Positions 50-63,997 of a stretch of 64,000 bases of DNA are shown here, piece by piece. Both the position numbers and the translations under genes were made by a program. This DNA is from Tetradesmus obliquus (lineage: Eukaryota > Chlorophyta > Chlorophyceae > Sphaeropleales > Scenedesmaceae): contig CP126203.1 of NCBI GenBank assembly GCA_030272155.1, positions 4,222,501 to 4,286,500 of the forward strand. Direction: 5' to 3'. Under the pieces are notes generated by a model that searched no databases, was not told the DNA's origin, and worked only from the letters and a program-made list of their open reading frames with translations. How positions within the stretch are numbered: position 1 is the first letter of the stretch; the number at the start of each line of letters is the position of its first letter.

Positions 50-3000
50 GGCCCAACGGCACCTTGGATGCCACCTGGGGCGGCATGGGCGACCTGGCAT
101 ATGAGTACATGCTAAAAACCTGGGTGCTGTCTGGTGGCAGGGATGAGGTGAGGCAACAAACGTGAGCTGTGTGTGACAATTTGTACGGCCCAGAAGACAG
201 ATATGTTTCTGAGGGGACAGTGTGATGCACCGCAGTTCGTGTTGGTGCCTTGCAGATCTAGTGCAATGTCGCGTGGTGGCAGCCAGTGGCCGCTTGTCAT
301 GCACTGCAGTGCTTCGTGCATTACCTTGACTTGGTTGTTGAATACATGTGTCCCCTGCAGGTGTCACTGCGACTGTACACCTCAGCAATGCGCGGCATGC
401 GCAAGCACATCTTGAACATCACAAGCAGCGGGACTGCATGGCTGAGCGATGTCTCCTGGGACCCCAAAACTGGCAGCGTGACGCATGGCAGCAGCATGCA
501 GCACCTGGCATGCTTTGCTGGAGCCACCATTGCACTAGGTGCGGCTCAACTTGTTGCACAGAAGCAAGTGCAGCGGGCAATGCATGGCCTGGCAAAAGAT
601 GTTGGCGGCTGTACAGCAGATGGCAGGTTTGCAGGAGCCAGCATTGCAGTCAGTGTTGCTTTGTTCCTTTGCTGCTGAGACGGCCGCATGTACACCAGGC
701 TGCATTGAGTCCTACAAGGGCATCAGCCGCTACAGCATGCCAGGACCTAGCCTAGCCACGATGCATTCTGCCCCACTAATTCTCCGCCTTGATTTGGTGC
801 TGCTGCTGCTGCTGCTGCTGCTGCTGCTGCTGCTGCTGCTGCTGCTGCTGCTGCTGCTGCCAGGCCACATGCACGGCATCAACACGGCCAGCCAGCCGGG
901 GGAGCCTGATGACTTGGCGGTGGCTGAGGCCATCGCCGGCGGCTGCTACCAGATGTACCGGCAATCTCCCTCAGGTGTGTGAAGCGGCTGCTTGATTTGT
1001 ACAGGCAGTCTTTGCTCTTTATGGCCTGCTGCTGCAAGATGTACCGGCAGTCCCCCTCAAGCGTGCGTCATACAAAAACGTTTGCCGGCAGCATTTGGCA
1101 GTCATTGTGTGCTGGGCAGCCGGGGGAGCCTGATGACCTGGCGGTGGCTGAGGCCATCGCTAGCGGCTGCTGCGAGATGTACAGGCAGTCGCCCTCAGTT
1201 GTGTGAGGCGGATGGTTGATTTGTACGGGCAGTCTTTGCGCGTTGTAGTGGCTGCTGCAAGACGTACCGGCAGTCTCCCGCCGGTGAGCACTTAAGGCAC
1301 AACAGGCAGTCAGCATGCATATGCATGAACACTGGCCGAGGCCATACTGGGGGATGCTACAGGATGCTGTGGACATCACAGTCAAGCAGAGCCCACACAC
1401 ACAGTGCGCAGCTCTGTTGCGGGTCAGCGGTGGGGGCGCTAGCGATGTCTGCTATGGTACATGTGATTACTTCTGGCACAACATGCCGTAACTCACCACA
1501 TGTTGCTGCTGCTGCTGCTGCTGCTGCTGCAGGACTGAACGCCCATGCAGTTGACATCATCAACGGCACACACGCTACACCCACATCAGGCCAGGCCTAC
1601 TACGACCAGCAGCCTGAACTTCTGGAGAGCCTCTTTCACATGTGTTCTCATTGTCTGCCTGCTGCTGTTTGCCACTCACAGGCTCCCAACCGGTGCTTGT
1701 GTCGGCCTGGCTTGCCCCACACAGCCACATCCAACTTCAGAGACACCACACTGGAGTTTGCTGCTGCTGCTGCTGCTGCTGCTGCTGCAGGGCTCAACGC
1801 CCATGCAGTTGACAGCCTCAACGGCACACACGCCACACCAACAGCCGGCCAGGCCTACTACGACCAGCAGCCTGAGCTGCTGGAGAGCCTGTTTTATTTG
1901 TGGCGCATCACTGGCAATGCCACCTACAGGGACTGGGGATGGCAGATCTTCAGGGCAATGCGCATGTGGACGCGGTGAGGAGGGGGGGGGTTTGAATTGT
2001 TTCTAGTTTTCAAACGGTACGAGGTCAGGTGGATGCTCTTTCAGAACAGCAGTTATATCCAGACGAGCAGTAAGCAGCAGCAGCAGCAGCAGCAGCAGCA
2101 GCAGCAGGTGGGTAGATGCACCAGCAGCCTGAAGTGCTGGAGCCTTTTTCATTTGTGGCTTGTCACTGGCGATGCGCATGTGGACGCGGTGAGATGATGT
2201 TTTGTGTGCTGTCTAGTTCTAAAACGGATCTAAGTCCAGGTGGATGCTCTTTCAGAACAGCAGATAAGTCCAAGGCAGCTGCAAGCAGCAGCAGCAGCAG
2301 CAGCAGCAGGTGGGCAGATGCAACCGCAGCCCAAGCTGTTGCAGAGCCTGTTCTACATGTGGCGCCTCACTGGCAGTTCAACCCAAGCGAACCGGGGGCT
2401 GGAAGGACACCCACACCCCTTCAGTTGGCCTTCACTTCAGCTGCCTGAACTGCCTGCCCTGTCTGTGAAGATGGACAGTCCAGCATGAAAAATGCAATTC
2501 TCTGCACCTTCAAGCATTGCTTGGCCAGGAGTTTCTGTACAAGTCCGCCTGCTGCAGGCTGCCCAATGGTGCCTCTGCCTGCCTAGCCAGCCCCACACAG
2601 CCTTTGTTATCACTCCAATCCAAACTTCTGCCCTGTTTGCACCTGTCTGTCTGCTTTGCTTGAACCCACAGGCTCCCCAATGGTGCCTTTGCCAGCTTGG
2701 ACAGCCCCACGCAGCCTCCCATCGGCACCCACCCATACTGCCTGCCCTGTCTGTACATGTCTGCCTGCTGTTTTTTTGCACTCACAGGCTGCCCAGTGGT
2801 GCTTGTGCCAGACTGGCCCCACCAAGGCGCGCTTCGGCACAGCACCTTAGCCTCCTGCCCTTCTTTGCTTCTCTGCCTGCCGATTTCTTATATGTGCAGG
2901 CTCCCCAATGGTGCCTTTGCTTGCCTAGCCAGCCCCACACAGGCCCCCTTCAACTACATTGACAACACACAGGAATGGTGGCTGTCAGAGAGCATGAAGT

Positions 3001-3203
3001 ACCTCTGGCTGCTGTTCTCGGATCATTCAGTGCTGCCTCTAGAAGAATGGGTGATCAATACAGAGGGGCACCCCTACAGGGCGCAGCGCTGGGCCAGCAG
3101 CAGCAGCAGCAGCAGCAGCAGCAGAAGTCAGGCAGCTGGTGTGCATTGGTCATGGCGAGAGAGTGGTACTAGTAGTAAAGCCGCAGCTGATGGTGTGCAG
3201 TGA
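50..3203 (+). CDS. Class I alpha-1,2-mannosidase (GH47), 5'-partial
   Basis: Member of glycosyl hydrolase family 47, which trims mannose from N-glycans in the ER/Golgi. Five exons join in phase: 50-147, 361-538, 864-974, 1791-1974 and 2900-3203. In order they encode GDLAYEYMLKTWVLSGG (GH47 'D.yYEYLlK.W'), SMQHLACFAGATIALG (GH47 'M.HLaCF.GGm..LG'), CYQMYRQSPSG (GH47 'C..mY..tPtGL.PE'), QPELLESLFYLWRITGN (GH47 'RPEt.ESlfyLyR.TGd') and SESMKYLWLLFSD...INTEGHP (GH47 'ETLKYlYLLFsd...vfNTEaHP'). The protein ends in a Ser-rich tail coded by a CAG repeat. The N-terminus and the first catalytic part lie left of the window. Exons 3, 4 and 5 each have extra partial copies in the neighbouring introns. 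ER versus Golgi type cannot be decided from this part. Confidence 0.88.
797..860 (+). repeat. (CTG)n microsatellite at a 3' splice site
   Basis: About 21 uninterrupted CTG units end directly in the acceptor ccag of mannosidase exon 3 at 864. The repeat thus sits where the pyrimidine tract would be. The same arrangement recurs at many acceptors in the window. Confidence 0.9.
1030..2835 (+). repeat. Partial tandem copies of mannosidase exons 3, 4 and 5
   Basis: Copies of exon 3 (QPGEPDDLAVAEAIA..CY.MYRQSPS) lie at about 1039-1056, 1099-1193 and 1263-1283. Exon 4 is copied at 1533-1640 and, degenerate, at about 2106-2195 and 2312-2400. The start of exon 5 (cag|gct.cccaatggtgcc...agccccacacag) is copied at about 1679-1730, 2547-2600, 2660-2716 and 2787-2835. 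The exon 3 copy at 1099 has lost its donor: cag|gtgtgtga has become cag|ttgtgtga. None of the copies gives a complete exon with both splice sites in phase. Confidence 0.8.
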
Positions 3204-63492: not shown

Positions 63493-63997
63493 GTGAGGGT
63501 TCAAACTAGGGTTGAGGGCTAGGGATTAGTATAAGGGTTTAGTACTAGGTCTCCAGCAGGGTTTAGGTTTGGGGCTTAGCCGGTGGTAGCTGCTGGCTTG
63601 GTGGAGGCGTTCGCAAGCAGCAAGGTTTAAAAGGACCCAGAGCTGGGCAAGGCCAGCGCAGAGGTAAGCCCTAGGGTTCAGTGTTTGACCGCCAGGTAGG
63701 GGGCCTCCTACTGGAAACGTCAAAAAAATGAACCCTAGGGCTTACCCTTGCAGTATGGGGTGAAAGGTGCTGGCTGCAGCTGGGGCTTGTGGAGGCCCTT
63801 GCAAGCAGCGAGGCCTCAGAGGACTCAGAGCTGGGCAAGGCCAGTGCTGAGGTGAGGGTCTAAACTAGGGTTCAGCACTTTGTCTCCAGCAGGGCTTGGG
63901 GATAGGGGTTAGCAGGTGAGATCTGCTGGCCTGTTGGAGGCGCCTGCCACCAGCGAAGTATCAAATGGCCCTGAGCTGGGCAAAGCCTGCGCGGAGG
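63253..63997 (+). repeat. Copies of dehydrogenase exon 6
   Basis: A decayed copy of the exon start (ctgcagccacgcaccacagcgctgccgccac) lies at 63255-63285. After the complete exon (63359-63492), copies of its end (GLVEA.ASS..S.DPELGKASAE with GT donor) lie at about 63592-63664, 63785-63851 and 63926-63996. Their spacers contain ctagggttcag/gggtttag strings resembling telomere repeats. The array runs out of the window. Confidence 0.85.

Follow-up and report, generated by a model that had tools for sequence, protein, structure and literature searches.

A 64,000-bp window of contig C13 (5,023,913 bases) in the Tetradesmus obliquus OEZ86 assembly (Chlorophyta, Sphaeropleales; 104.7 Mb in 17 contigs) raises the question of how fragments of exons came to lie, often in arrays, in the introns and flanks of the genes to which these exons belong. 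An initial annotation of the window had described a tandem amplification of single exons in almost every gene and had attributed it to a genome-wide process of copying in place. Analysis of the window, whose positions are used as coordinates throughout, and of a sample of further loci indicates that the half-exon copies probably arose by repeated in-place, head-to-tail duplication of short gene segments, followed by decay.

Exon models cover four genes of the window. The exons of the pyruvate decarboxylase (PDC), GST and short-chain dehydrogenase (SDR) genes were determined by splice-aware protein-to-genome alignment, allowing GT/GC-AG introns only. The exons of a GH47 alpha-mannosidase gene, of which the 3' part is visible, were placed manually, on the basis of the sequence and of matches to Pfam PF01532. 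The hydrolase, subtilase, MYND-2 and SPC3 genes named in the initial annotation lie outside the exon counts. A separate search with every one of the 31 exons against its own gene region (E ≤ 1e-3) revealed partial copies in the adjacent intron or flank of 19 exons (4/5 in GH47, 9/14 in PDC, 2/5 in GST, and 4/7 in SDR). The reported copying of exons was thereby confirmed for all four genes, with the correction that the copies are parts of exons, mostly touching one exon edge, and not whole exons. They are located within existing introns or flanks.

The position of the copies followed a strict rule. Among the 92 copies, 31 were 5' parts, all upstream of their exon, 49 were 3' parts, all downstream, and 12 were internal; neither whole-exon copies (0/92) nor inverted copies (0/92) were found in the gene regions searched. 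The side rule was kept by 80/80 edge copies, which form 28 exon/side groups with as many as 13 copies on one side of an exon, in agreement with the arrangement of 5' halves upstream and 3' halves downstream described before. Such a pattern is the outcome of tandem duplication when one breakpoint falls inside an exon and the intact exon remains, and it does not have to reflect the copying machinery itself. Transposed or cDNA-derived fragments would not be expected to yield it. The gene models and copies are as follows.

50..3446, + strand: 3' part of the GH47 alpha-mannosidase gene (sequence by eye, Pfam PF01532, and exon copies)
50-147, 361-538, 864-974, 1791-1974, and 2900-3203, + strand: GH47 exons, hand-set; the end of the last is uncertain
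614-648, + strand: 3' part of GH47 exon 2 (this and the following GH47 copies from the exon-copy search)
1117-1198, 1028-1059, and 1250-1279, + strand: 3' parts of GH47 exon 3
1535-1644 and 2168-2188, + strand: 5' part and 3' part, respectively, of GH47 exon 4
1682-1755, 2558-2600, and 2672-2723, + strand: 5' parts of GH47 exon 5
3222-3441, + strand: 3' part of GH47 exon 5
8749..17444, + strand: PDC gene (14 exons, 8749-15564) with its copies, from spliced alignment, copies, and Tandem Repeats Finder (TRF); edge copies of exons 3, 4, 6, 7, 8, 11, and 14, internal copies of exons 5 and 10
9727..9807, + strand: copy of the 3' part of PDC exon 3 (exon at 9517-9674)
9935..10456, + strand: array of 5' parts of PDC exon 4 (10057-10109, 10211-10263, 10303-10355, and, weaker, 9956-10002), with the real exon, 10404-10485, last
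14028..14242, + strand: intron-only tandem array, 43 bp × 5, 100% identical (TRF)
15683-17444: PDC 3' flank with seven 3' parts of the last exon (TRF, 250-bp unit × 5.7, 97%)
41392..45738, + strand: GST gene (5 exons, 41392-44906) with its copies, from spliced alignment and copies
43147-43254 and 42931-42989: 5' parts of GST exon 4
43694-43802: 3' part of GST exon 4
GST exon 5: four 5' parts upstream and seven 3' parts downstream, as far as 45738
54436..64000, + strand: SDR gene, 7 exons (spliced alignment to P0121, P0122, and P0124)
54436-54451, 56106-56194, 56867-56965, 57303-57425, 59770-59923, and 63359-63492: SDR exons 1 to 6; exon 7 lies past the window, at 65461-65628 in window numbering
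57699..59689, + strand: array of 5' parts of SDR exon 5, upstream of that exon (TRF, 240-bp unit, 7.6 copies)
59924..62545, + strand: array of 3' parts of SDR exon 5, downstream of that exon (TRF, 404-bp unit × 2.9, 97%, plus less similar copies)
63586..64000, + strand: 3' parts of SDR exon 6 downstream of the exon, running on past the window end

Joining one copy per exon gave a family-typical protein for PDC, GST, and SDR, as had been proposed. In spliced alignments, the PDC model was identical to T. obliquus protein P0002 at 559/572 residues. The PDC protein P0001 of OEZ85, a second assembly from which homologous proteins were used for comparison at the protein level, aligned with 566/576 identical residues and one extra 12-nt piece. 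The deposited proteins OEZ86_009385 (GST) and OEZ86_009387 (SDR) were identical to the window at 269/269 and 302/302 scored residues, respectively. The GST model also aligned to P0243 and the SDR model to P0124, two proteins whose names resemble transcriptome-assembly accessions of relatives.

Self-BLAST of the window at E ≤ 1e-8, a comparison suggested in the initial annotation, returned 167 direct repeat pairs, all less than 5 kb apart, and 0 inverted pairs. With the -task blastn setting, 165 direct pairs and 1 inverted high-scoring segment pair (HSP) were obtained, and the control, 20 dinucleotide shuffles, gave 0 and 0. Local direct repeats comprised 19,224 of the 64,000 bp, or 17,364 bp (~27%) when the transposon-rich region at 33.5-40.6 kb was left out. 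The identity of the repeat pairs (quartiles 79/84/88%) ranged overall from 100% (43 bp × 5) and 97% (250 bp × 5.7; 404 bp × 2.9) down to ~70%, and this spread of identities is a spread of ages. Local repeats were also present in the regions of the presumed hydrolase, subtilase, and MYND-2 genes; Pfam gave no hydrolase match in the plus-strand frames, to which the search was confined, and a subtilase match below threshold. The statement that almost every gene is affected should not be read as every gene, since the stretch at 3,447-9,593, which holds a gene with a long open reading frame (ORF), contained no repeat pair at E ≤ 1e-8.

The differences between copies and exons were counted at sites under three or more copies in nine exon/side groups. 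Changes private to one copy were nearly evenly distributed over codon positions 1/2/3 (31/30/41). Changes private to the exon were mostly silent (1/2/9), and the remaining patterns, mostly common to several copies, amounted to 13/11/51. These counts are the expectation for serial snapshots of a constrained exon, each of which then decayed freely. The distance from an exon to its nearest copy was 86-270 bp in the 28 groups. The duplicated unit took in intron sequence in 15/24 groups (HSP extension over 9 nt), and the intron part was clearly homologous in 7/28 groups (global alignment, z above 4), namely, GH47 exon 4 3', PDC exon 4, GST exon 4 5', GST exon 5 3', SDR exon 2 on both sides, and SDR exon 7 3'.

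The same pattern recurred elsewhere in the genome. A sample of 60 loci (30 kinase and 30 DEAD helicase loci from a Pfam search; 200,202 bp on 15/17 contigs) contained 200 direct repeat pairs versus 1 inverted pair, in 36/60 loci; 8 locus pairs in the sample overlap, so that some repeat pairs are counted twice. Copies were found for 15/60 coding intervals and comprised 28 upstream 5' parts, 23 downstream 3' parts, and 1 exception. The side rule was thus obeyed by 51/52 copies, where 5' and 3' denote the nearer end of the matched interval, the exon ends in this sample not being known. Third-position differences in the 60 loci (57/119) stayed within the 50% ceiling of a model that combines a decaying copy with an exon accepting silent changes only. 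A kinesin locus on contig C2 showed three partial exon matches upstream of a fuller one, plus a tandem array, and overlapping exon matches in a PDC paralogue on contig C14 would fit the same pattern. Searches with the PDC, GST, and SDR proteins against the whole genome (E ≤ 0.001) matched only their own locus and diverged paralogues, which argues against dispersed mobile copies. Transposon- or introner-borne copies are dispersed, often in both orientations, and the repeats found here are direct and local. In-place copying across the genome, and its distinction from transposition, had both been postulated in the initial annotation and are supported by these results.

A mechanism may be proposed from the arrangement of the copies. 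Short gene segments would be duplicated head to tail in place, repeatedly, probably by replication slippage, template switching, or unequal exchange, although the enzymology is conjectural. Duplication of a segment that reaches from the intron into the exon would leave a 5' half-exon before the intact exon, and duplication of a segment that reaches from the exon into the intron would leave a 3' half-exon after it. A duplication confined to an exon would alter the protein, as would one that takes in a complete exon and its two splice sites, and both kinds are assumed to be purged by selection. Half-copies devoid of one splice site, most of which presumably remain unspliced, would be tolerated in introns and flanks, where they could decay and, in some arrays, be multiplied further.

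Several observations weigh against in-place duplication followed by free decay as the whole explanation. In the window, third-position differences reached 153/245 (62%; longest copy per group), which exceeds the 50% ceiling (p = 6e-5). This excess came mainly from PDC, whose edge copies differed from their exons 24/22/105 times at codon positions 1/2/3. In 21/28 groups, the stretch of intron that should be homologous, judging by the nearest copy, showed no clear homology (z of 4 or less). Homology stopped within 9 nt of the exon edge in 9/24 groups, 8 of them in PDC, compared to 0-6% in simulated neutral tandem duplications; in the simulation the indel rate was set to 10% of that of substitutions and the introns were scrambled, and higher indel rates would soften the contrast with the data. 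A copy of PDC exon 7 was 98% identical over 56 bp, and the intervening intron was nonhomologous. The orientation and side rules were also not without exception, with 4 inverted HSPs in the SDR gene at E ≤ 1e-6 and one upstream 3' part (1/52) in locus L070 of the genome sample, where the interval exceeds its match length and therefore probably contains an intron. Of whole-exon copies, 2.3 were expected and 0 seen, so that their absence is only suggestive. Finally, 17/18 repeat clusters in three genes touched an exon, more than in the simulation at most ages, with PDC at the oldest age reaching 0.86.

Further details were noted in PDC. The copy of exon 3 at 9727-9807 showed 9 differences, 8 of them at third codon positions, and its homology ended 2 nt beyond the donor. 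The half-exon copies at 13408-13481 and 15091-15211 differed from their exons mostly by silent changes, which free decay does not explain. Conversion between copy and exon as the source of the silent excess was rejected, by argument only, since one of the two lineages would be noncoding at any time.

The PDC data direct attention to diverged alleles. If the alga is sexual and hyperdiverse, repair or unequal exchange between homologues of very different strains, with homology confined to exons, might overshoot the exon edge and be joined in the neighboring intron, so that introns would fill with half-exons of the foreign allele. The 105 third-position differences of the PDC edge copies would fit such a source, as would an AGC-to-TCT swap, serine to serine, in the exon 11 copy at 13408-13481. 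Homology was restricted to the exon in 8/10 PDC groups (one other reached into the intron and one was without an HSP), and PDC proteins of other T. obliquus strains differ by ~2%. The kinase and DEAD loci, however, match plain duplication with decay (57/119), some units include intron sequence, and repeated local duplication is needed in any case to produce as many as 13 copies on one side of an exon and units that are 97 to 100% identical. An allelic origin is therefore considered unlikely as the general explanation; if it were true, the introns of some genes, and of PDC in particular, would preserve past alleles as a fossil record.

The order of the copies in the introns, which resembles two interleaved versions of PDC, might also be produced by an assembly that merged two haplotypes into one consensus or misjoined long reads. 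However, predicted proteins of OEZ85 carry such segments too, among them the GST exon 4 copy and an apparent terminal piece of a copy of PDC exon 8. One side of an exon can have as many as 13 copies, at several levels of identity, and the pattern is repeated on other contigs; both facts likewise speak against an artefact, which we regard as the least credible explanation. Retention of the copies as functional alternative exons for splice variants has somewhat more in its favor and is still very improbable. Some copies of SDR exon 5 and GST exon 4 are still in frame between an acceptor and a donor that could be used, and such copies form part of the deposited predictions OEZ86_009387 and OEZ85_000856; stops account for only 4/216 amino-acid-changing codons in the copies. 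Against this stand the lack of any complete copy among the 92, their absence from proteins of relatives that look transcript derived, and the nearly even distribution of copy-private changes over codon positions. Repeated in-place duplication thus remains the favored origin of the half-exon copies.

The exon specificity implied by an amplification of single exons was overstated. The proportion of bases in repeats was 43% in exons versus 31% in introns for PDC, 32% versus 44% for GST, and 52% versus 67% for SDR, and in the 60-locus sample copies occurred in 15/60 coding intervals versus 27/120 flank intervals, which contain exons too. Exon-targeted copying is thus not supported, the repeat coverage of exons not being consistently higher. 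Triplet tracts of the CAG/CTG type were rejected as a cause, with 4/80 copy junctions near a tract of at least 12 bp and a null mean of 5.0. Within 74 kb (the window and the next 10 kb), 94 tracts of the CTG/CAG class of at least 12 bp were counted, some of them right at splice acceptors, e.g., 798-860 and 1759-1788. An origin of the PDC copies from the C14 paralogue was ruled out for the last exon, where identity to the query is 54% for the paralogue and 73-93% for the copies in the window. Comparison with a stretch of contig C12 gave no indication of a segmental duplication of the window: the sole recurring part was a 5.3-kb element at 17,715-23,043, the remainder having been compared with the genome by three proteins only.

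The number of units differed between homologous arrays, both among copies of this element and, for an SDR exon 3 segment, between the proteins of the two strains. The C12 copies of the element are 95-98% identical, and its terminal array, with ~2 units in the window, has ~3 and ~1 units in two C12 copies.

22701..23043, + strand: ~2 tandem units of ~166-172 bp that end the 5.3-kb repeated element

The predicted SDR of OEZ85 contains three successive exon 3 segments, and the exon-copy search of the SDR region detected no copy of exon 3 in OEZ86. Half-copies make introns longer and lead gene prediction astray. The deposited SDR protein OEZ86_009387 contains one copy of exon 2 and four copies of exon 5, stops in an intron, and is without the last two exons; it appears to be a misannotation that joined exon copies in a gene spanning 54436-65628 (window numbering). 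Other exon copies are held in OEZ85 predictions.

Tandem duplication of whole exons, as in mutually exclusive exons, repeats exon sequence within a gene as well, but there the copies are complete and spliced, whereas 0/92 copies were complete here. Internal, i.e., intragenic, tandem duplication of segments was reportedly described by Gao and Lynch in 2009. The copies of that system are likewise local, direct, and within genes; the present case differs in that what remains at exon edges are half-exons, which occur in many genes, frequently as arrays, and obey a strict side rule. According to PMC3443670, duplicating gene segments in tandem is an accepted route to new introns. In potato RdRp (PMC4974935), a tandem duplication spans an intron-exon boundary, and part of the exon copy turns intronic. 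The duplicated segment would cross such a boundary here too, but the potato duplication stands alone and gave rise to a new intron, and the duplications of T. obliquus are widespread and lie inside existing introns. Introns of Chlamydomonas and Volvox are rich in tandem repeats, more densely so near exon junctions, as in T. obliquus; the portion of PMC3887541 on which this statement rests counts repeat motifs and does not describe half-exon copies. The open-access literature searched yielded neither a paper on half-exon copies in T. obliquus or its order nor an account of half-exon copies that obey a side rule. Internal tandem duplication as such is known, and the density and regularity seen here look new.

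Internal tandem duplication fills ~27% of the window and 31-67% of the intron bases in three genes. Such density may help to explain the long introns of T. obliquus, for which Table 1 of PMC5966456 lists a mean of 462 bp, the means of four other green algae being 230-302 bp. Provided that the half-copies are unspliced, they would constitute records of earlier exon states, in which neutral decay could be measured beside constrained sequence at one locus.

Some other repeats of the window probably belong to mobile elements. Two direct repeats of 723 bp (35552-36274 and 39866-40588), 99.9% identical and 4.3 kb apart, are probably the long terminal repeats (LTRs) of a recently inserted LTR retrotransposon. 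Near-identical direct repeats (33531-33673, 35051-35193, and 35191-35278) surround an ORF at 34068-35045 on the - strand, which we take to resemble the zinc-knuckle end of a non-LTR element. A 45-bp repeat at 33,531-33,575 and 35,234-35,278 flanks this apparent transposable-element ORF, and the repeats around it were possibly the source of the statement in the initial annotation that the last 45 bp of SPC3 are duplicated.

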